From Chloracidobacterium thermophilum B (GTDB lineage: Bacteria; Acidobacteriota; Blastocatellia; Chloracidobacteriales; Chloracidobacteriaceae): a stretch of 64,000 bases of DNA. Both the position numbers and the translations under genes were made by a program. The stretch spans positions 496,001 through 560,000 of the forward strand of contig NC_016025.1 in the NCBI RefSeq assembly GCF_000226295.1. The letters are read 5' to 3'. Shown one piece after another: positions 1,485-64,000 of the stretch. How positions within the stretch are numbered: position 1 is the first letter of the stretch; every line of letters starts with the position of its first letter. The notes under the pieces are model-generated. The model was not told the DNA's origin, did not search any database, and saw only the letters and a program-made list of their open reading frames with translations.

Positions 1485-1501
1485 CGAAAAAACGCCGTAA
1501 A

Positions 1502-1522
1502 GCCCTGCACTTTAGGGCAGGG
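1502..1522. repeat. Left-end hairpin of IS copy 1
   Basis: CCCTGC (1503-1508) can pair with GCAGGG (1517-1522), or GCCC with GGGC in an offset fold. Subterminal imperfect palindromes like this are what TnpA recognises in IS200/IS605 ends. The same hairpin occurs at 61689-61709. Confidence 0.7.
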
Positions 1523-1573
1523 ATATAAGGCGCACGCTGTTTTATCAAGCCAAACCTGTGATAAAATAGCAGT

Positions 1574-2836
1574 ATGAGAGTCATGGAAGCCAAGCTACTC
1601 AACGGGACAGCAGAGCAGTATCAGGCTCTGGATGAAGCCATCCGTACCGCACAGTTTGTCAGAAACAAATGTGTGCGGTACTGGATGGACAACAAGAGCG
1701 TCAACAAAGCTGTTCTCTATGCCCACTGCAAAGACCTGGCCAAAGAGTTTGACTTTGCCAGGAAGTTAAACTCAGCGGCAAGGCAGGCAAGTGCAGAGCG
1801 AGCTTGGGCTTCCATTTCCCGGTTCCATACCAACTGCAGAAACAAGGCGGTCAGGAAAGGGTATCCCAAGTTCAAGAAGCATTGCCGTTCTGTGGAATAC
1901 AAGGTATCTGGCTGGAAGCTGTCAGGGGATGGGATGACTATCTCGTTCACCGATGGCTTCAATGCTGGTGCTTTTGCTCTGTACTGCAATGGTGAGGCAA
2001 GACACCATATCCTAAACTCCAAAATCAATCGGGTGCGGGTGATACGCAGGGCAGATGGGTACTATGCTCAGTTCTGCCTGGATGTGGAGCGCAAAGAGCA
2101 GGGAGCATACACAGGCAATGTGATTGGCATTGACTTGGGCTTGAAGGCTTTCTACACCGACCAGAACGGCAACCCTGTAGAGTATCCTAAGTTTTTGAGG
2201 CGTAGTGAAAGGAGGTTAAAGCAACACCAGCGCAGATTAAGTCGGAAGTTCAAGAAGAGGGCAAAATCCCAATCCAAGAACTACCACAAGCAAAGAAAGC
2301 GACTGGGCAAAGTGCATCTGAAAGTCCAACGCCAGCGTAAAGACTGGGCAATTAAGCAGGCACGGTGCGTGGTGGCATCTCACGATGTCGTGGCGTATGA
2401 AGACTTGCAGGTGAAGAACCTGGTCAAAAATCATCATCTTGCCAAATCCATTCATGATGCTGGCTGGTCTCAATTCACTGCGTGGCTGGACTACTACGGC
2501 AAGGTGTGGGACAAGGCAGTCGTCAGCGTACCGCCGCAGTACACCACACAGGACTGTAGTCACTGTGGGCATAGGGTAGTAAAAACCCTATCCACCAGAA
2601 CCCATAGTTGTCCTCAATGTGGATTTGAATCAGACAGAGACCAGAATGCGGCTTTGAACATCCTCAAGAAGGGACTAAGCATCTTGGGAATGGAGTGGCA
2701 AAACAGTACCTTTGGGCAAAAGGGAACTGCCTCGAAAGAGGGAACGCTTGGGGAGAGATGCACCGCTGCTTTAGAGGGGCAACCTGATGAAGTAAGTGCG
2801 CTCGCAGAACCAAGAACAAGAATCCCCTGCCTTTAG
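1574..2836 (+). CDS. tnpB: RNA-guided endonuclease TnpB (OrfB_IS605), intact
   Basis: The 420-residue protein has the complete TnpB architecture: an N-terminal wedge/REC-like region, then RuvC-I (GIDLG, D187), RuvC-II (AYEDL, E276), a zinc finger with two CxxC pairs, and RuvC-III (DRDQNAALNIL, D356). TnpB proteins use an omega RNA made from the element's right end to cut DNA next to a TAM. The ATG at 1574 follows a GATAAAAT-like -10 sequence at about 1558. The last codons and the stop lie inside the right-end hairpin, where the guide RNA scaffold is expected. The low-GC codon use is unlike the neighbours. No TnpA partner is present in the element. Confidence 0.93.
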   Translation: MRVMEAKLLNGTAEQYQALDEAIRTAQFVRNKCVRYWMDNKSVNKAVLYAHCKDLAKEFDFARKLNSAARQASAERAWASISRFHTNCRNKAVRKGYPKFKKHCRSVEYKVSGWKLSGDGMTISFTDGFNAGAFALYCNGEARHHILNSKINRVRVIRRADGYYAQFCLDVERKEQGAYTGNVIGIDLGLKAFYTDQNGNPVEYPKFLRRSERRLKQHQRRLSRKFKKRAKSQSKNYHKQRKRLGKVHLKVQRQRKDWAIKQARCVVASHDVVAYEDLQVKNLVKNHHLAKSIHDAGWSQFTAWLDYYGKVWDKAVVSVPPQYTTQDCSHCGHRVVKTLSTRTHSCPQCGFESDRDQNAALNILKKGLSILGMEWQNSTFGQKGTASKEGTLGERCTAALEGQPDEVSALAEPRTRIPCL

Positions 2837-2843
2837 GCAGGGG
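2824..2843. repeat. Right-end hairpin of IS copy 1 (likely 3' end of omega RNA scaffold)
   Basis: A perfect 8-bp stem, CCCCTGCC/GGCAGGGG, with a TTTA loop spans the tnpB stop codon and ends 7 bases before the TCAA end. In characterised TnpB systems the scaffold ends at the element boundary and the guide is the flanking DNA, here beginning at 2854. That an RNA is made is inferred. Confidence 0.65.
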
Positions 2844-2917
2844 AGTATGTCAAACACTTTGGTACTTGTTCGCACGCCGGCCGATAATACCCAGGCGCCC
2901 CCGGCTTTACAGATGCG

Positions 2918-3538
2918 TTACAGGCGCGGGCTGGCGTAGGTCATCACCAGATAGGCCAATGTTTCTTCAGCGCCCGGATTGGCATAGACGTGCGGTACAT
3001 CAGCCCGAAAATAGATGGCATCGCCGGGCAGAAGATGGATCGTCTCGCGGTCGCCAATCGTCAGCGCCAGGCAGCCCTGCTGCACGACCAGGTTTTCGTA
3101 CGTGCCGTCGGCATGCGGCTCGGCCACTTCGACGCACCCCACACTCAGCCGCAGTTCATAAAACTCGGCCCGCCGCTCGCGGTCAAAGGGAAAGAGGGCG
3201 CGGCTCTCAAAGCGTCCATCCTGGGAACGCAGCACCTTGGCGGCAGCGCGCGGCAACACCACCACAGCCTGCTCCGGCTCATCGCCCAGCAGATCGGCAA
3301 AGCGCACGCCCAACCCACGGGCAATCTTCCACAGGACGGCAATCGTCGGCGCGCTTTCGCCTGCCTCGATCTGCCCCAGCATGGCCCGGCTCACCCCGGA
3401 CTGCGCCGCCAGCCGCTCCAGGCTCAACCCACGTTGCCGGCGGAGCAGTTCGAGATTGCTCCCCACCCGCCGCTTCAGCTCAAGCGCTTCGGAGGCCGTA
3501 ACCTTTTCATGGTCAGATACTTTTGACCTCGGTTTCAC
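2918..3538 (-). CDS. XRE-family regulator with C-terminal cupin domain
   Basis: The 206-residue protein has an N-terminal helix-turn-helix at about residues 25-80 (LELLRRQRGLSLERLAAQSGVSRAMLGQIEAGESAPTI and following) and a C-terminal cupin_2 fold at about 135-200, with HADGTYE and LLPGDAIYFRADVPH as the metal- or ligand-binding motifs. Such HTH-cupin regulators usually sense a small metabolite and often control amine, amino-acid or stress genes; the ligand cannot be read from the sequence. It is transcribed divergently from the Rrf2 gene, with 150 bp between the start codons, so shared regulation is possible. IS copy 1 ends 64 bp beyond its stop codon. Confidence 0.88.
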   Translation of the reverse strand: MKPRSKVSDHEKVTASEALELKRRVGSNLELLRRQRGLSLERLAAQSGVSRAMLGQIEAGESAPTIAVLWKIARGLGVRFADLLGDEPEQAVVVLPRAAAKVLRSQDGRFESRALFPFDRERRAEFYELRLSVGCVEVAEPHADGTYENLVVQQGCLALTIGDRETIHLLPGDAIYFRADVPHVYANPGAEETLAYLVMTYASPRL

Positions 3539-3688
3539 GACTCATCACCCACCTGTGAACGAGCTGTCCGCCACTCGGTCGAAGCCAGGCAGATATTGTT
3601 GACGAAAAAGTAAAGTATTCGGTAAGGTGGATGGCACTGGAATCCGACCGAGGGAAAGCCCCGGATCATGAAGTAGAGTTTCACACCG

Positions 3689-4168
3689 ATGCGAATTACG
3701 GCGCAAGAAGAATATGGACTTCGCTGCCTCATCCAGCTTGCCCGCCAACCCGAGGGACAAGGGCTGACCCTCAAGCAGATTGGCGAGCGGGAAGGGATTT
3801 CCACGGCCAATGCCGGCAAGATTCTCTGGCTGCTGAGCAACGCCGGTATTGTGAAGTCGGCGCGCGGGATCAAGGGCGGCTACATGCTGGCCCGTCCGGC
3901 CGACCAGATCACGGTCAGCGAAGTCATCAGTGTTTTCGAGCATGCCGATCTGGAAGAACATTGCAAGAACTTTTCAGGCATTCAGGAAGTCTGCGTCCAC
4001 AACACAGACTGCGGCATCCGTCCGGTGCTGCAGATACTCAATGAGACCGTCAAGCAGGTTCTCAGCCGGATTACCCTCGCCCAGCTCGTCCACCACGAAT
4101 GTGAAGTGAGTGAACGGCTGTTTCAAATCCAGCGCCCGGCACGCTCTTCAGCGGCGATGTCCGTCTGA
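3689..4168 (+). CDS. Rrf2-family Fe-S-sensing transcriptional regulator of the suf operon
   Basis: The 159-residue protein is an Rrf2/IscR/SufR-type winged helix: MRITAQEEYGLRCLIQLA at the N-terminus, the recognition helix region STANAGKILWLLSNAGIV, and the wing GIKGGYMLARP. Three cysteines (C92, C102, C108) match the cluster-binding set of this family, so an Fe-S cluster probably controls DNA binding. It lies 78 bp upstream of sufB and is co-directional with the suf genes, the usual place for an autoregulated repressor of Fe-S assembly. The ATG at 3689 begins the conserved MRIT motif. Whether it behaves as IscR or as SufR cannot be decided from sequence alone. Confidence 0.9.
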   Translation: MRITAQEEYGLRCLIQLARQPEGQGLTLKQIGEREGISTANAGKILWLLSNAGIVKSARGIKGGYMLARPADQITVSEVISVFEHADLEEHCKNFSGIQEVCVHNTDCGIRPVLQILNETVKQVLSRITLAQLVHHECEVSERLFQIQRPARSSAAMSV

Positions 4169-4246
4169 CCGCCAGCGATTGGGCATCGGTGCGGGCCGTC
4201 CCCCGGCACACACACACTTGGTCAACCACGAGGAAGGAATATCGTC

Positions 4247-15824: not shown

Positions 15825-16061
15825 TCAGATTTTCCTGCCCTCTTCCCGCATTTTCTTCAGGACGTACTCAATCCCATACCGGTTGATGGTTTTGATGGCG
15901 CGCGCCGAAAGACGCAGCCGCACCCACCGGTTTTCACTCGGCACCCAAAACCGCTGCCGTTGCAGGTTGGGCAGAAAACGCCGCTTCGTACGGTTGTTCG
16001 CGTGCGATACGTTGTGGCCCGACATCGGGCGCTTTCCGGTCACTTGACAAACCTTGGCCAT
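15825..16061 (-). CDS. rpmB: 50S ribosomal protein L28
   Basis: The 78-residue basic protein is L28: the N-terminal [34 protein letters not shown] and the central [29 protein letters not shown] are the conserved family blocks. L28 sits at the large-subunit surface near the E site and helps 70S assembly. It has a single cysteine, so it is the zinc-free form. It is transcribed alone on the minus strand with its own terminator. The ATG at 16061 gives the standard length. Confidence 0.97.
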
Positions 16062-18761: not shown

Positions 18762-20438
18762 ATGACGCGCCTGTTTTCACTTGTCCTGGCCGGACTTACC
18801 ATCGGCACGGCAGCCGTGGCCGGATACCTGGAACGCACCTCACCAACTCCTGTGCCCATCACCATCCCCCAGCCCCCTGAAGCTGACGACCTGCCACCCG
18901 AACCCCAGCCCACTCCACGACCGGCTTCCGATCCGGGACGGAAACTTTCCCCGAAGGAAGCCGTGGCCGGATACCTGGAACGCACCTCACCAACTCCTGT
19001 GCCCATCACCACCCCCCAGCCCCCTGAAGCTGACGACCTGCCACCCGAACCCCAGCCCACTCCACGACCGGCTTCCGATCCGGGACGGAAACTTTCCCCG
19101 AAGGAAGCGGCGGAGTACCAGCGCACCATTGCCGCCACAGCCGGCATGGTGCAAGACGCCCAAGCCATTGCCCTGGCCCAAAAATACGGCCTCGACATCG
19201 TCAACCTCACCTGGGAAGACACCGGACGCTACAAAAACTCCGCCGTCGGCCCCAACATCAGCGACATGACCATCCAGGTCGGCTTTGAAGACCCCACTAC
19301 AAGACAGTTCCAAGTCACCTGCATGCCGGTCATCCGCTACCCCAACTTCCGGGACCTCACCTGCGACCTCGACCCGCGCGACTTCACCCTGCTTGTGGGC
19401 AATCACCACGGGCAACCCCTGCGGCGCGTCTCGCTGTACGACTTCCTCGCCCATCCGCGTTCGTATCTGACCAACCCGGCTTCGTGGCGCGGCGAAAAGC
19501 ACAGCCTGCTGGCTCCGCGCGACACCCGGGTACTCGTCAGCGCCCAGGCGTGTTTCCTGCCGATTCCCAAGAGCGGCAAGGCGACGTTCAACCCCGTGTT
19601 GTTCAACTACCAGTCCAAGAAAGGCGACCCGGCGGTGCTGACGATTCTGGCCACACGGGAAGGGACGAGCGTCACCATCATTGACAATGAACGGGATGCG
19701 TTTCGCAGCGGCAGTGTGTGGGGGCAGCGGTTGTTTTTCAATGCCAACGGGCAGCGGGCAAGTCTGACGGGCGAACGGGAGAGTGACTTTGTGGCGAAGG
19801 GGGGCGATCGGACATCGCCGACGCCGGGCGCGCCGGGTCAGACTTCAGGACTCAACCTGGTGCTGCTCATTCAGGTGCCACTCAAACAGCGGACACTTCC
19901 CCGAAGCAAGCCTCCAATGGTTCCGGGCATTGCCTACGAGTCAAAGGCAGCAGGCATGCCCGCCCCGCGCGCCAGCGACATCGAAAATGCCGTCATCGGA
20001 CACGGCGATCTGGAAGGGCCCTTTACCGAGATTGATAACCTCGCCATCGAACGCGATGAACGCTTCCCGGTGCGCGTCACGGTTCAGTTTTACAAAGCGA
20101 CCTCGAACGGCGTCGCCACGGAAGCCGACATTGCGGCTATCAAGGCCAACATCGAGCGCATCTACGCCCAGAGCACCGATGTGGGCAGCCTCGTCACCGG
20201 CGGCGAAACCGGACGGGTGACGGAATACGATGGTGTCAAGGTACAGCCGACGGACTGGTGGGAAGACTTCTGGGAACGCTACGAAGCGAGCACCGGCATT
20301 TCACGCTACGAAGCCATCCGGCGGCTGCGCGAGCTGTTGGGAACGAACTTCCGGCAGCAACCGGTCTGTGAACTCTACCTGCGCGATCTGCTGCGCTCAG
20401 CAGGCAGGAAGCACCCACACCGCAAGCCAGCCAGCTAA
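18762..20438 (+). CDS. Hypothetical protein, paralogue A, with duplicated proline-rich leader
   Basis: The 558-residue protein starts with a hydrophobic segment (LFSLVLAGLTIGTAAVAG) that may be a signal peptide or anchor. A proline-rich linker with PEADDLPPEPQPTPRP follows and occurs twice because of an in-frame 147-bp tandem duplication. The remaining 445 residues, from KLSPKEAAEYQ, match paralogue B at 21657. I do not recognise the family; the body contains predicted beta-rich segments and no catalytic motif. The first 342 residues of the shared part are encoded by DNA identical to paralogue B, while the C-terminus (after about residue 450) diverges. It ends in a strong terminator. Confidence 0.8.
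   Translation: MTRLFSLVLAGLTIGTAAVAGYLERTSPTPVPITIPQPPEADDLPPEPQPTPRPASDPGRKLSPKEAVAGYLERTSPTPVPITTPQPPEADDLPPEPQPTPRPASDPGRKLSPKEAAEYQRTIAATAGMVQDAQAIALAQKYGLDIVNLTWEDTGRYKNSAVGPNISDMTIQVGFEDPTTRQFQVTCMPVIRYPNFRDLTCDLDPRDFTLLVGNHHGQPLRRVSLYDFLAHPRSYLTNPASWRGEKHSLLAPRDTRVLVSAQACFLPIPKSGKATFNPVLFNYQSKKGDPAVLTILATREGTSVTIIDNERDAFRSGSVWGQRLFFNANGQRASLTGERESDFVAKGGDRTSPTPGAPGQTSGLNLVLLIQVPLKQRTLPRSKPPMVPGIAYESKAAGMPAPRASDIENAVIGHGDLEGPFTEIDNLAIERDERFPVRVTVQFYKATSNGVATEADIAAIKANIERIYAQSTDVGSLVTGGETGRVTEYDGVKVQPTDWWEDFWERYEASTGISRYEAIRRLRELLGTNFRQQPVCELYLRDLLRSAGRKHPHRKPAS
18813..19106 (+). repeat. 147-bp in-frame tandem duplication inside paralogue A
   Basis: Unit 1 (18813-18959) and unit 2 (18960-19106) differ at only one base that I can see (ATC versus ACC, Ile to Thr). 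Each unit encodes 49 residues starting AVAGYLERTSPTP and ending GRKLSPKE, so the reading frame is kept. Confidence 0.9.
19088..20113 (+). repeat. 1026-bp direct repeat, copy A
   Basis: This stretch is base-for-base identical to 21707-22732, including all synonymous positions. The first difference after it is C20114 versus T22733. The two are 2619 bp apart and in the same orientation. Confidence 0.92.
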
Positions 20439-21409: not shown

Positions 21410-21656
21410 TTCCTTCAGGGATTGACACGGTCACGTATCATGTTCGCGTGTCACGGTTACGCGCGTTGTGCTGCGTTTTATGACGCATTGTAAGAGACGC
21501 CAGCAGTAAGCCTCTTTCGGTCAGGCCATAGCTCCGTGGGCGTCCATCTCTGGCGGTTGGCCTGACCTGACGCGCGCGTTTTTGCCCAAACCAACCGGTG
21601 ACGGAATTCATCCGCCGCCATGTGCCCCACACGCAACCTGCCTGGAGGACAATGTC

Positions 21657-23060
21657 ATGCCCAAAAGCAAGCCATCCAAAAATCCAGCAACATCGGCCCC
21701 GGCACCGAAACTTTCCCCGAAGGAAGCGGCGGAGTACCAGCGCACCATTGCCGCCACAGCCGGCATGGTGCAAGACGCCCAAGCCATTGCCCTGGCCCAA
21801 AAATACGGCCTCGACATCGTCAACCTCACCTGGGAAGACACCGGACGCTACAAAAACTCCGCCGTCGGCCCCAACATCAGCGACATGACCATCCAGGTCG
21901 GCTTTGAAGACCCCACTACAAGACAGTTCCAAGTCACCTGCATGCCGGTCATCCGCTACCCCAACTTCCGGGACCTCACCTGCGACCTCGACCCGCGCGA
22001 CTTCACCCTGCTTGTGGGCAATCACCACGGGCAACCCCTGCGGCGCGTCTCGCTGTACGACTTCCTCGCCCATCCGCGTTCGTATCTGACCAACCCGGCT
22101 TCGTGGCGCGGCGAAAAGCACAGCCTGCTGGCTCCGCGCGACACCCGGGTACTCGTCAGCGCCCAGGCGTGTTTCCTGCCGATTCCCAAGAGCGGCAAGG
22201 CGACGTTCAACCCCGTGTTGTTCAACTACCAGTCCAAGAAAGGCGACCCGGCGGTGCTGACGATTCTGGCCACACGGGAAGGGACGAGCGTCACCATCAT
22301 TGACAATGAACGGGATGCGTTTCGCAGCGGCAGTGTGTGGGGGCAGCGGTTGTTTTTCAATGCCAACGGGCAGCGGGCAAGTCTGACGGGCGAACGGGAG
22401 AGTGACTTTGTGGCGAAGGGGGGCGATCGGACATCGCCGACGCCGGGCGCGCCGGGTCAGACTTCAGGACTCAACCTGGTGCTGCTCATTCAGGTGCCAC
22501 TCAAACAGCGGACACTTCCCCGAAGCAAGCCTCCAATGGTTCCGGGCATTGCCTACGAGTCAAAGGCAGCAGGCATGCCCGCCCCGCGCGCCAGCGACAT
22601 CGAAAATGCCGTCATCGGACACGGCGATCTGGAAGGGCCCTTTACCGAGATTGATAACCTCGCCATCGAACGCGATGAACGCTTCCCGGTGCGCGTCACG
22701 GTTCAGTTTTACAAAGCGACCTCGAACGGCGTTGCCACGGAAGCCGACATTGCGGCTATCAAGGCCAACATCGAGCGCATCTACGTCCAGAGCGAAGATG
22801 CCGGCAGCCTTGTGACCGGCGGCAAGACCGGACGGGTCACGGAGTACGAGGGTGCCAAGGTGCAGCCAACAGACTGGTGGGAAGACTTCTGGGAACGCTA
22901 CGAAGCGAGCACCGGCATCGGACGCTACGAAGCCATCCAGCGGCTGCGCCAGCTTCTGGGTTCGCATTTCCGGCAGGAACCGGTCTGCGAGCTGTACCTG
23001 TGCGATCTGTTGCGATCATCGGGACTCAGGAAACCAGATTCCAAGCCCGCCACCCTCTGA
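21657..23060 (+). CDS. Hypothetical protein, paralogue B
   Basis: A 467-residue protein with a GGAGGA ribosome site eight bases before the ATG at 21657. The leader is short and lysine-rich (MPKSKPSKNPATSAPAPK) with no signal peptide, unlike paralogue A. From KLSPKEAAEYQ the sequence equals paralogue A for 342 residues and then diverges (VQSEDAGSLVTGGKTGRVTEYEGAK versus AQSTDVGSLVTGGETGRVTEYDGVK). The function is unknown. The different leaders suggest that A is exported or membrane-bound while B is cytosolic; this is inferred from the N-termini only. Confidence 0.8.
   Translation: MPKSKPSKNPATSAPAPKLSPKEAAEYQRTIAATAGMVQDAQAIALAQKYGLDIVNLTWEDTGRYKNSAVGPNISDMTIQVGFEDPTTRQFQVTCMPVIRYPNFRDLTCDLDPRDFTLLVGNHHGQPLRRVSLYDFLAHPRSYLTNPASWRGEKHSLLAPRDTRVLVSAQACFLPIPKSGKATFNPVLFNYQSKKGDPAVLTILATREGTSVTIIDNERDAFRSGSVWGQRLFFNANGQRASLTGERESDFVAKGGDRTSPTPGAPGQTSGLNLVLLIQVPLKQRTLPRSKPPMVPGIAYESKAAGMPAPRASDIENAVIGHGDLEGPFTEIDNLAIERDERFPVRVTVQFYKATSNGVATEADIAAIKANIERIYVQSEDAGSLVTGGKTGRVTEYEGAKVQPTDWWEDFWERYEASTGIGRYEAIQRLRQLLGSHFRQEPVCELYLCDLLRSSGLRKPDSKPATL
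21707..22732 (+). repeat. 1026-bp direct repeat, copy B
   Basis: Identical partner of 19088-20113; see that entry. Divergence on both sides of the tract is sharp at the 5' end and gradual at the 3' end. Confidence 0.92.
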
Positions 23061-33771: not shown

Positions 33772-34175
33772 CCATCACAGCGAAATCCATCCAACTGATG
33801 GGCTGGCAGCCAAGCGGACTACTGCCATGCCCGGACAAGCACGGCTGACCTCTGGTTGCCGGACTGGCCCCTGTCAACAACGGCACGCCGCAGCGCCCGG
33901 GCAAATCCGCCCTTGACACCAGGATAACGGGCAATAACAATAAACGCCGTCCAGCTCACAGCATTGGTTGCTCCCTCGCTTTTGGGTATCGAAGGCGGCT
34001 GAAGCGCCTTCCTCCAGAAGCAGCGGGCGTCCGGTCTTCCGTGCACGCCTGCTGATTGGAAGAACCGGGCTTCATAGCCGGGAAGGTGGCTAAAGGCAAA
34101 CAGGACGGTCTTACTTACAAAAAACGTGTCATCGGGAATTGGATTGAAACATCGAACCGGGAAGGAGTTTGCCCA
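33772..34175. other. Intergenic stretch, no supported gene
   Basis: About 400 bp. The minus strand has an open reading of 75 codons (33819-34046) ending MHGRPDARC at its N-terminus, which resembles no family I know and lacks a ribosome site. A hairpin GAAGGCG/CGCCTTC lies near 33990. I see nothing else. Confidence 0.45.
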
Positions 34176-34982
34176 ATGTCAGACACTCTCGAACAGGCCA
34201 TTGCGGCTATCAAAGCCGGTGACAAAAACACCGGCGGGCAACTGCTCAATCAGGTACTGCAAACCGATCCCCAAAACGAAACAGCCTGGTTATGGATGAC
34301 CACTGTTGTTGGCTCAGATGAGGAAAGACGGAAGATTTTGGAGTATATACTATCCATCAATCCCGACAACGAAATTGCACAAAACAGCCTGGCCAAACTG
34401 AAGCCTCCGGTATCTCCGGCAACTGATATTCAGGTTGATCCCTATCCTACTCCTCCGCAGCAATTTGAGACTCCATTACAACCAGCACACAAGGCAGAGG
34501 AAAATGAAGCCGTAAGGAAATGTCCATATTGCGCGGAAACCATCAAAGCCGAAGCCATTGTCTGCCGGTTTTGCGGCAGAGATATAAAGACCGGGCAATC
34601 ACTCCCTACGACTGTTGCCATAAACCAAGACACGCCCTCTATATCACCATATCTTGTTCAACGCATTAGGGAGATGACATATTCAGGATGGTATATTATC
34701 CACATAACACCGACAGAAGTTCACCTAAGAAAACCCAAGAAATTTGGCATAGCTTTATATCTTTTCACTGTTATTTTCTTACATTCACTCACCACCATGT
34801 CCACGACGAAATACCATTATCAATATGGCTACTGTGACTACCCCCAAGAATGTATCATGAAACTCATACTTACAGCAGTTTTTGTGTTTTTTATAGCCGC
34901 TATAATCTATCTCTTGAGAAGAGATAGGATGCTTTGCTATACTGAAGAGCAACTTAGAAGAGAGAAAGAACGAAAATCTTGA
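34176..34982 (+). CDS. TPR/zinc-ribbon membrane protein, probably foreign
   Basis: The 268-residue protein has an N-terminal TPR-like pair (LEQAIAAIKAGDKNTGGQLLNQVLQTDPQNETAWLW), a proline-rich linker, a zinc ribbon (CPYCAETIKAEAIVCRFCG, residues about 116-134), and two hydrophobic segments near the C-terminus (FGIALYLFTVIFLHSL; LILTAVFVFFIAAIIYLL). GC content falls steeply along the gene and into the following 130 bp. The TPR plus ribbon combination is a style I associate with Chloroflexi; that is an impression, not a search result. A GGAAGGAG site precedes the ATG at 34176. Confidence 0.75.
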   Translation: MSDTLEQAIAAIKAGDKNTGGQLLNQVLQTDPQNETAWLWMTTVVGSDEERRKILEYILSINPDNEIAQNSLAKLKPPVSPATDIQVDPYPTPPQQFETPLQPAHKAEENEAVRKCPYCAETIKAEAIVCRFCGRDIKTGQSLPTTVAINQDTPSISPYLVQRIREMTYSGWYIIHITPTEVHLRKPKKFGIALYLFTVIFLHSLTTMSTTKYHYQYGYCDYPQECIMKLILTAVFVFFIAAIIYLLRRDRMLCYTEEQLRREKERKS

Positions 34983-35349
34983 ACAAACTTAGATTTTTTA
35001 CCGAAAATTCAACTGCTAAAATAATAAATATAATGACCTTTATCGTCGTGCTTTTTACTATATTAGCATTATTTTGAAATCTAATAAACTTTCGATAAAT
35101 TCAAAAAGTCAACTCATAACATAGCTTGCTTTTCATCCTTCTGGATAAAGAGAAGACTTCTGGTCCAAAGTGAGTAGAAGCCCAGCTTGGTAACTTTTTT
35201 CCAGAGATGAAGACCGGGCAGATAGTGATGTTGATTTCCTGGTTGACTTTGAACCCGGTCAAACCCTGCTTGACCAGTTACACGGCAAGCCTCGGACTTC
35301 AGGACGGGGAGGATGTCCAACCAGTCCCAAGGCACCATTTCCACACCCC
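34983..35349. other. AT-rich intergenic stretch
   Basis: The first 130 bp are strikingly AT-rich compared with the rest of the window. The remainder returns to higher GC and has an unrecognised minus-strand reading (35114-35359) that lies just beyond the stop codon of the broken propeller gene. No promoter, RNA or gene can be supported. Confidence 0.5.
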
Positions 35350-61380: not shown

Positions 61381-61671
61381 ATGTATGCCTTCTTGCGCGG
61401 CGCCGGCTGCCCTTGGCGCGCCATTCGTCTGCTGGTTCGCCAACCGGCGCTCTGGCGCTACGTTGCTATTCCGGTTGGTCTCAATCTTCTGGTTGGGGTT
61501 GTCCTGTACGCAACGCTGTTATTGGCCGGCTTTCGCTTCATCGCTATGCTTGTGGAAGGCTGGCCTGCGTGGATCGCCTGGCTGCTGCGCGGCCTGTTGG
61601 TTATAACGCTCTTTGTCACGTTGGGTTACGTGCTCGTGCGCTTTGGCGTGGTGCTCGGAGCGCCGTTTTAC
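61381..61671 (+). pseudogene. EI24/CysZ-like membrane protein, truncated by IS copy 2
   Basis: About 97 residues remain: MYAFLRGAGCPWRAIRLLVRQPALWRYVAIPVGLNLLVGVVLYATLLL, followed by two more hydrophobic helices up to VLGAPFY. This is the usual N-terminal half of the EI24 (DUF540/CysZ) family, whose complete members are about 250 residues. The gene is cut exactly at the TTAC target where IS copy 2 begins; the reading then runs into the element and stops at 61764. The rest of the gene is not found on the far side of the element, which is cyanobacterial DNA. Confidence 0.85.
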
Positions 61672-61688
61672 CGAAAAAACGCCGTAAA

Positions 61689-61709
61689 GCCCTGCACTTT
61701 AGGGCAGGG
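61689..61709. repeat. Left-end hairpin of IS copy 2
   Basis: Same sequence as 1502-1522 in copy 1: GCCCTGC with GCAGGG. Confidence 0.7.
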
Positions 61710-61760
61710 ATATAAGGCGCACGCTGTTTTATCAAGCCAAACCTGTGATAAAATAGCAGT

Positions 61761-62786
61761 ATGAGAGTCATGGAAGCCAAGCTACTCAACGGGACAGCAG
61801 AGCAGTATCAGGCTCTGGATGAAGCCATCCGTACCGCACAGTTTGTCAGAAACATACGTGTGCGGTACTGGATGGACAACAAGAGCGTAAACAAAGCTGT
61901 TCTCTATGCCCACTGCAAAAACCTGGCCAAAGAGTTTGACTTTGTCAGGAAGTTAAACTCAGCGGCAAGGCAGGCAAGTGCAGAGCGAGCTTGGGCTTCC
62001 ATTTCTCGGTTCTATACCAACTGCAGAAACAAGGCGGTCAAGAAAGGGTATCCCAAGTTCAAGAAGCATTGCCGTTCTGTGGAATACAAGGTATCTGGCT
62101 GGAAGCTGTCAGGAGATGGAATGTCTATCACCTTCACTGATGGCTTCAATGCTGGTGCTTTTGCTCTGTACTGCAATGGTGAGGCAAGACACCATATCCT
62201 AAACTCCAAAATCAATCGGGTGCGGGTGATACGCAGGGCAGATGGGTACTATGCTCAGTTCTGCTTGGATGTGGAGCGCAAAGAGCAGGGAGCATACACA
62301 GGCAATGTTATTGGCATTGACTTGGGCTTAAAGGCTTTCTACACCGACCAGAACGGCAACCCTGTAGAGTATCCTAAGTTTTTGAGGCGTAGTGAAAGGA
62401 GGTTAAAGCAACACCAGCGCAGATTAAGTCGGAAGTTCAAGAAGGGGGCAAAATCCCAATCCAAGAACTACCACAAGCAAAGAAAGCGACTGGGCAAAGT
62501 GCATCTGAAAGTCCAACGCCAGCGTAAGGACTGGGCAATTAAGCAGGCACGGTGCGTGGTGGCATCTCACGATGTCGTGGCGTATGAAGACTTGCAGGTG
62601 AAGAACCTGGTCAAAAATCATCATCTTGCCAAATCCATTCATGATGCTGGCTGGTCTCAATTCACTGCGTGGCTGGACTACTACGGCAAGGTGTGGGACA
62701 AGGCAGTAGTCAGCGTACCGCCGCAGTACACCACACAGGACTGTAGTCACTGTGGGCATTATGGTAGTAAAAACCCTATCCACTAG
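61761..62786 (+). pseudogene. tnpB: TnpB, frameshifted and missing RuvC-III
   Basis: The reading follows copy 1 through RuvC-I (GIDLG) and RuvC-II (AYEDL) to the first CxxC (CSHCGH), then a two-base insertion (CATTATGGTAG versus CATAGGGTAG) shifts the frame to a stop at 62786. Downstream the second CxxC and the DRDQNAALNIL block are absent because the heptad foldback took their place. The protein would lack the third catalytic aspartate, so it cannot cut DNA. Residue changes from copy 1 are few (for example KCVRY to IRVRY). Confidence 0.9.
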
Positions 62787-62812
62787 AACCCATAGTTGTC
62801 CTCAATAAGGAA

Positions 62813-62947
62813 GCAAGTGGCGAGTGGCGAGTGGTTCAGAGGCGAGTGGTGAGTGGCGAGTGGCGAGTGGTTCGGAAGGTAATTCGCTACTCGCTACTCG
62901 CTGCTCGCTACTCGCTCCCTGTTCGCTATTCGCTACTTGCCACTACA
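62813..62947. repeat. Heptad-repeat foldback (inverted repeat) inside IS copy 2
   Basis: The left arm (62813-62874) is built from GTGGCGA-type heptads and the right arm (62884-62947) from their reverse complements (TCGCTAC, TCGCTGC, TTCGCTA). The arms can fold into a long imperfect hairpin. Heptanucleotide short tandem repeats are well known in cyanobacterial genomes. Confidence 0.88.
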
Positions 62948-63065
62948 GTACCTTTGGGCAAAAGGGAACTGGGGAGAAATCCCGAACGACTGGGGAGATA
63001 AGCACCGCTGTCGCAGTAGGGCAACCTTCTGCGATAAGTGCTGTCGCTGAACCAGTAATCAGAAT

Positions 63066-63085
63066 CCCCTGCCTTTAGGCAGGGG
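63066..63085. repeat. Right-end hairpin of IS copy 2
   Basis: CCCCTGCC/GGCAGGGG with a TTTA loop, identical to 2824-2843 in copy 1. Confidence 0.7.
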
Positions 63086-63102
63086 AGTATGTCAACTAGC
63101 TT

Positions 63103-64000
63103 ATGCCGAAAACTATGTCATGGATTGCGATCGCTAGCGTTAGTTTGCTCGGTAGTGTGTTTGCCAGCGCCCAACTCCACCGCCCCATAGATAACCCTGC
63201 TGTTGTCAGTCTGAATTCGAGAGCGATCGCTGTTTTTGATCCTTTGACCTACCGCCCCATCGACCAGCGCATCGCCCAACTGAGGAGTAATGGCACTGAT
63301 CCGCGTCAGCGATTGTTGTTGGCTGACCTGTACCTGCAAAGCAATGACCCCCGCTCTGCCCTGAATGTCTTGGACAACCTAGAGCGAGATTATACCCTGC
63401 TGGCAGATTATGTATTGGTCAAACGGGCGCAGGCTTACCAGCTTGCCCAAGACAACCAGAATGCTAACCTAGTGTGGCAAGAAGTTTTAAGCAAGTATCC
63501 TAATAACCCCAGTTCGGCGATCGCCCTTGCCGCTTTGGGACGAGAAGCAGAACTGATCAGCCGCTTTCCCAAGCATCCCCTTACCCGCACTGCTCTGCTG
63601 AGGGCGATTAACCGCCAACCGCAACAGCGGCAGTCAGCCCTACAGCTAGTTACCTATTTCCCTGACACGCCGAACATTGTGCCGATTCTCAATCGCTTGG
63701 TGGCTGGGGGCAGTAATTTGACACCAGACCAGTGGTGGGCGATCGCCACTGCCTACTACGATAACTTTGAGTTTAGCCGTGCCGCCAATGCTTACGCCAA
63801 TGCCACCCCCAATAGTTTTACCGCCTATCGCATGGGCAGAAGTTGGCAGAGAGCAAGACAACCCCAACGGGCGATCGCCGCCTACCAAAGAGTAGTCCAG
63901 CAGTATCCCAATAGTCCCGAAGCTCCCAGAGCTTTGCTCCGTATTATGCAGATCGGGGATCAAAATCAAGCGAAACAAGCGAGCGATCGCATTGCCCGCA
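63103..64000 (+). CDS. Cyanobacterial-type soluble lytic transglycosylase, N-terminal part (partial)
   Basis: An open reading of 299 codons from the ATG at 63103 continues past the window end. It starts with a signal-like MPKTMSWIAIASVSLLGSVFASAQ and goes on as TPR-like helical pairs (RLLLADLYLQSNDPRSALNVLDNLERDY; QPQRAIAAYQRVVQQYPNSPEAPRALLRI), the layout of the superhelical region of Slt-type transglycosylases; the catalytic SLT domain would lie outside the window. Six HIP1 octamers (63127, 63223, 63517, 63739, 63871, 63983) and lower GC mark it as cyanobacterial. The start lies 8 bases after the IS end. Confidence 0.8.
   Translation, partial: MPKTMSWIAIASVSLLGSVFASAQLHRPIDNPAVVSLNSRAIAVFDPLTYRPIDQRIAQLRSNGTDPRQRLLLADLYLQSNDPRSALNVLDNLERDYTLLADYVLVKRAQAYQLAQDNQNANLVWQEVLSKYPNNPSSAIALAALGREAELISRFPKHPLTRTALLRAINRQPQQRQSALQLVTYFPDTPNIVPILNRLVAGGSNLTPDQWWAIATAYYDNFEFSRAANAYANATPNSFTAYRMGRSWQRARQPQRAIAAYQRVVQQYPNSPEAPRALLRIMQIGDQNQAKQASDRIAR

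Follow-up and report, generated by a model that had tools for sequence, protein, structure and literature searches.

The closest described relatives of the locus reported here are of two kinds. Insertion sequences of the IS608 type of the IS200/IS605 family, including tnpB-only forms, have a TTAC left site, a TCAA right end, hairpins near both ends and a TnpB protein, and horizontally acquired IS-bordered genomic islets are marked by foreign composition, foreign phylogeny, an IS at the edge and decaying genes. All of these traits recur at a locus on chromosome 2 of Chloracidobacterium thermophilum strain B. It differs from the IS608-type elements by having no tnpA, by a repeat-bearing subtype of the IS and by a solitary palindrome of head-to-head left ends where the foreign DNA stops on the right, and from the islets in that the transfer appears to have crossed phyla within one hot-spring mat, is common to two species and has breakpoints at base level. 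The island was not mentioned in the literature searched, the 2012 genome paper lying outside that search; the published strain comparison treats horizontal transfer in general and for phototrophy genes, with transposons unmentioned (PMC8245765).

The DNA analysed, hereafter the window, is a stretch of 64,000 nucleotides corresponding to C2:496001-560000 (chromosome 2) in the 2011 genome of strain B (G000; 3,695,372 bases in two contigs), a consensus built from 454 data on a non-clonal enrichment from Octopus Spring (PMC8245765). It was compared with the closed genome of C. aggregatum strain N (G004; 2,639,773 + 1,075,403 = 3,715,176 bases), which is axenic, was sequenced by PacBio Sequel and comes from Mushroom Spring, its group showing about 93.7% ANIb to strain B (PMC8245765). 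We consider it very likely that at least 5.3 kb of cyanobacterial DNA was transferred across phyla into Yellowstone Chloracidobacterium, where copies or remnants of an IS608-like element border it on both sides. It would be a recent case of transfer from a cyanobacterium to another phototrophic phylum in hot-spring mats, with base-resolved breakpoints and two species to compare, and it illustrates that, in a genome from an enrichment, a change of composition at a multi-copy IS is not necessarily the sign of a chimera, and that an independent strain genome can decide the matter.

The first-pass annotation had placed an abrupt switch in sequence character directly after the TCAA of the second IS copy of the window, and this switch is real. 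The TCAA ends at 63095 and the foreign DNA runs from 63096 (C2:559096) to about C2:564427, in total 5.33 kb, of which the window holds the left 0.9 kb (63096..64000) and some 4.4 kb lie past its end; since the chromosome continues there, the right end first given to the foreign tail was a mere window limit. The preceding 63 kb is indeed free of the octamer GCGATCGC, as all six sites of the window fall within 63127-63990 (chance of all six in the last 905 bases about 8e-12 under even placement), and 11 of the 35 sites in the genome lie inside the 5.3-kb segment against 0.05 expected. GC content drops to 52-55% directly past the junction and is 42-55% over the segment, compared to about 61% in host DNA, and GC3 is 0.48-0.59 in the island genes versus 0.70-0.78 in three host genes. 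Three other GCGATCGC sites of the genome occur within 11.4 kb at C2:178142-189542 and may mark further foreign DNA, and a GC dip to 45% at window positions 34001-35000, around an ORF of 308 aa that includes a cysteine-rich part resembling a zinc ribbon, is possibly another foreign gene.

All genes of the segment are on the + strand, in the order slt, rpmB (L28; L009:4455-4691, where L009:7428-7493 corresponds to C2:564428-564493), an XRE-cupin regulator (L009:4697-5284), a GntR/UTRA regulator (L009:5281-5991) and an ACR3 arsenite efflux transporter (L009:6291-7427; TIGR00832, 424 bits versus a cut-off of 283). The slt gene is in two parts split by an in-frame TAG (L009:2103-3362 and 3366-4202), and the two halves adjoin in Pseudanabaena too. 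The cyanobacterial-type Slt gene noticed earlier at the tail is thus cyanobacterial as claimed, but the window holds the N-terminal TPR half alone (63103..64000), the SLT catalytic domain lying past its end behind the TAG. A cyanobacterial origin of the tail, proposed from the letters alone, is borne out by the protein comparisons. For the SLT half, identity is 65% with Pseudanabaena and does not exceed 44% outside the cyanobacteria; in the SLT tree it groups with Pseudanabaenaceae (SH-aLRT 95-97). ACR3 has a position inside the cyanobacteria in its tree and shares 73-85% protein identity with cyanobacteria, 48-51% with other phyla and 32-43% with Acidobacteriota, other Chloracidobacterium included; against plasmid records it reaches 81% with Leptolyngbya and at most 51% with other phyla. 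The island rpmB encodes a second, cyanobacterial-type L28 with 78% identity to a member of the Pseudanabaena order versus 33% to the host's own L28 (rpmB; matched part 15879..16055, - strand), an affinity judged by identity and not by a tree. The segment is thereby shown, on sequence comparison, to be of cyanobacterial origin. The proteins are alike those of cyanobacterial slt, rpmB, XRE-cupin and acr3 genes of Pseudanabaenales and others (65% for SLT, 78% for L28 and up to 85% for ACR3), whereas the gene order differs, and the order slt-rpmB-xre-gntR-acr3 was not seen in any cyanobacterium searched. Near-identical donor DNA was not found among 386 cyanobacteria from across the phylum and 38 members of the Pseudanabaena order, the best DNA identity per gene being about 72-77%, and these searches named no donor. 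In one member of that order (L212, G439:C5:1-15000), slt and acr3 lie at most 5 kb apart as in the island, in a different arrangement; this lineage may be near the donor.

The IS200/IS605 (IS608-like) element that borders the segment, copy 2 (61672..63095, + strand), starts directly after TTAC with a hairpin-bearing left end (61672..61723) and finishes with a right end of hairpin and TCAA (63067..63095). Its tnpB is frameshifted and truncated, leaving a 341-aa ORF (61761..62786, + strand), while copy 1 (1485..2853, + strand, likewise after TTAC) has an intact tnpB of 420 aa (1574-2836). The left ends listed are located directly 3' of TTAC in 15 of 15 cases (13 distinct sites), the right ends read GGGGAGTATGTCAA, and copies 1 and 2 and the copy in strain N share the right end CCCCTGCCTTTAGGCAGGGGAGTATGTCAA, with TCAA beside an imperfect hairpin. 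TnpB matches PF01385 (E=2.9e-22) and NF040570, the RNA-guided type (226 bits versus a cut-off of 100). The Y1 transposase TnpA is absent from the element, and the three Y1_Tnp matches in the genome are all on chromosome 1; with no TnpA inside it, this is a tnpB-only IS that would require TnpA in trans. As to duplication or loss at the target, the empty sites in strain N, which are one-sided, would be compatible with clean insertion. Copy 2 belongs to a subtype in which heptamer-like tandem repeats (62816..62937) replace part of the tnpB 3' region. Relatives of this repeat type, with repeats AGTGGCG and TCGCTAC, are found at C2:795832, C2:353478, C1:1667280 and C2:135732, the right part of the subtype is 80% like the standard type, and similar repeats recur at C2:861-866 kb.

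Among the matches listed for seven Chloracidobacterium genomes, the IS occurs in strains B and N alone, both of which hold the segment. Strain B has at least 14 full copies, and 12 of 14 are on the 1.0-Mb chromosome 2, with 2 on the 2.7-Mb chromosome 1 (P about 9e-6 if copies were spread evenly). Many inversions on chromosome 2 have been described (PMC8245765). Outside the genus, all eight plasmid records similar to the IS DNA are cyanobacterial and all eight phage records come from cyanophages; Pseudanabaena phage PA-SR01 ranks first among these, with 70% over the full query. The best genomes are those of cyanobacteria, namely G211, which we take to be Synechococcus JA-2-3B'a, and G363, at 71-73% over most of the element; another G211 copy reaches 80% over 760 bases. 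The relatives in G211, G363, G440 and PA-SR01 have the same layout of TTAC, left hairpin, TnpB and a right end GGGGAGTATGTCAA, which was read directly in G211 and PA-SR01, but their DNA identity to the Chloracidobacterium IS is only 70-80%. The IS is, on these data, evidently cyanobacterial in affinity and not an identical shared element. The expectation that one IS family would be shared by an acidobacterium and a cyanobacterium holds, with the sharing limited to the family level: the best cyanobacterial copies have 72-80% DNA identity, so that the same element is in no sampled cyanobacterium.

In strain N the same locus, with collinear flanks, holds 3.1 kb of the segment (L009:4342-7480; 99.46% identity). 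The inner right junction is identical in the two strains, consisting of the ACR3 stop, TTTAC and an IS left end, and the outer edges differ. On the left side, strain B has the 5' part of an EI24/CysZ-family gene (61381..61671, + strand), confirming that the EI24-like gene left of the IS lacks its second half: it is cut after codon 97, directly behind TTTTAC. The orthologue in strain N is intact (246 aa; PF07264, E=1.7e-38), and at the corresponding site TTTTAC runs straight into AGCCGC. Beyond EI24, strain N has an Hsp70-TPR gene and then a UvrD-like helicase gene of which the first 97 codons remain, a short remnant of an IS left end interrupting it at TTTTAC. The cyanobacterial DNA comes next, and to its right lies a full IS ending in TCAA. 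The idea that this helicase gene has its tail in the right flank of strain N was dropped, since the supposed tail does not outscore shuffled sequences when compared with the homologue. The Hsp70-TPR/helicase DNA between EI24 and the island (3.4 kb) is absent from the strain B assembly, and slt is absent from strain N. At the right edge in strain B, a 66-base palindrome (L009:7428-7493, C2:564428-564493) consists of two IS left ends head to head and is flanked by TTAC on both outer sides; the host DNA beyond it holds a gene with orthologues in other Chloracidobacterium species. The solo IS end on the right adjoins a TTAC that strain N also has, without an IS there, which suggests that an oppositely oriented IS was formerly located there.

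Identity between strains B and N, per 500 bases, is a mosaic of 83-99.8% (C2:537-588 kb versus G004:C2:393-448 kb), with 99.2-99.8% in the island and mostly 97-99.6% in the right flank (565 to about 571 kb). This mosaic along the chromosome makes exchange between the species by homologous recombination likely, and suggests that such recombination may be frequent. The value of 99.5% taken alone as proof of recent spread is weakened by the same mosaic.

From the two end states we infer the following order of IS insertions and deletions. A relative of the Pseudanabaenales would have been the donor, with free DNA or a phage as possible vehicles, and the cyanobacterial DNA would have come to lie between two IS copies of the same orientation. 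In the lineage of strain B, recombination of an IS in EI24 with the IS left of the island may have deleted about 3.4 kb, comprising the EI24 3' half, the Hsp70-TPR gene and the helicase start; with EI24 whole in strain N, such an IS-IS deletion best explains the half gene, and recombination between two direct IS copies would be the simplest account of the strain B left side. On its right side, an inverted IS and the right-hand IS presumably collapsed to the palindrome of head-to-head left ends. Strain N would instead have lost the interior of the left IS together with slt, and the region was probably also exchanged between both species by homologous recombination. A sequenced virus as vehicle was considered and rejected: neither a match to the left end nor a relative of ACR3 turned up in IMG/VR contigs, the XRE-ACR3 part is matched by none of the phage records, and cyanophage relatives were found for the IS only.

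The simpler reading was originally held to be a chimera. Here a multi-copy IS common to both organisms would have led the assembler to fuse Chloracidobacterium sequence with reads from a cyanobacterium of the enrichment. A multi-copy IS does stand at the left joint, and the non-clonal culture behind the 454 consensus once contained the cyanobacterium Synechococcus JA-2-3B'a, since removed (PMC8245765). The strain N genome nevertheless overturns this reading, and refutes it for the shared 3.1 kb: the same DNA, locus and inner IS junction are present in an axenic, independently sequenced second species, and the different outer edges in B and N argue against one shared assembly error. Moreover, SLT is Pseudanabaenaceae-like and the segment is found at high identity in no searched cyanobacterium. 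We regard a chimera as extremely improbable. As most of the segment is also in the sister species, a real transfer is the preferred reading, and by virtue of the same locus in the PacBio genome of that species the segment is evidently a physical part of the recipient chromosome. It must be noted that, with slt missing from strain N, the window part 63096-64000 is confirmed only by being continuous, in strain B, with the stretch that both strains hold, and that the slt part and the EI24-IS-slt joint derive from the 454 assembly of strain B alone. The transfer could accordingly be real and the joint an internal mis-join at the strain's own multi-copy IS, the true left neighbour being the helicase gene as in strain N. 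Such an error is conceivable, for the repeat at the joint has at least 14 copies and the PacBio genome of the derived clone exceeds the 454 assembly by 61 kb (PMC8245765). It is nonetheless unlikely, given that the assembly of strain B lacks the Hsp70-TPR/helicase DNA of strain N, which is what a true deletion would lead one to expect, and that strain N is collinear with strain B in the flanks on either side of the block.

Within the preferred reading of a real transfer, IS copies may already have flanked the segment in the donor, and the IS-bordered block may have entered by composite transposition or by recombination with a resident IS. Direct IS copies on both sides of the block in the reconstructed ancestor, the cyanobacterial and cyanophage character of all similar plasmid and phage records, and the restriction of the IS to the two segment holders among the seven genomes (among the matches listed) are in keeping with such an entry. 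However, identity to the IS does not exceed 80% in any cyanobacterium sampled, later IS insertions into acquired DNA would give identical junctions, and the genomes yielded neither a second location nor a clean empty site that would fit a single-step insertion. An IS-bordered entry is thus possible and rather doubtful. One may speculate further that mat cyanobacteria, their phages and Chloracidobacterium all carry relatives of the same IS608-like element and that the IS thereby serves as a portable homology arm between phyla, by which IS-bordered cyanobacterial DNA is swapped into IS-bordered places on chromosome 2, and that it brought an arsenite pump of use where springs are rich in arsenic; we consider this an improbable reading.

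The island copies of strains B and N have 10 coding differences, 7 non-synonymous and 3 synonymous, which is about what would be expected without selection and too few to decide. With no sign of purifying selection, passenger DNA would be the cautious reading, and adaptive retention of ACR3 was set aside as unsupported by these differences. Arsenic-rich Yellowstone springs with acr3 genes and Chloracidobacterium have been reported (PMC13171826), so that use of the ACR3 pump by the host is possible. Elsewhere in the window, two paralogous genes (18762-20438 and 21582-23060) are 99% identical over at least 300 bases, and the first of them has a 147-base in-frame tandem duplication.
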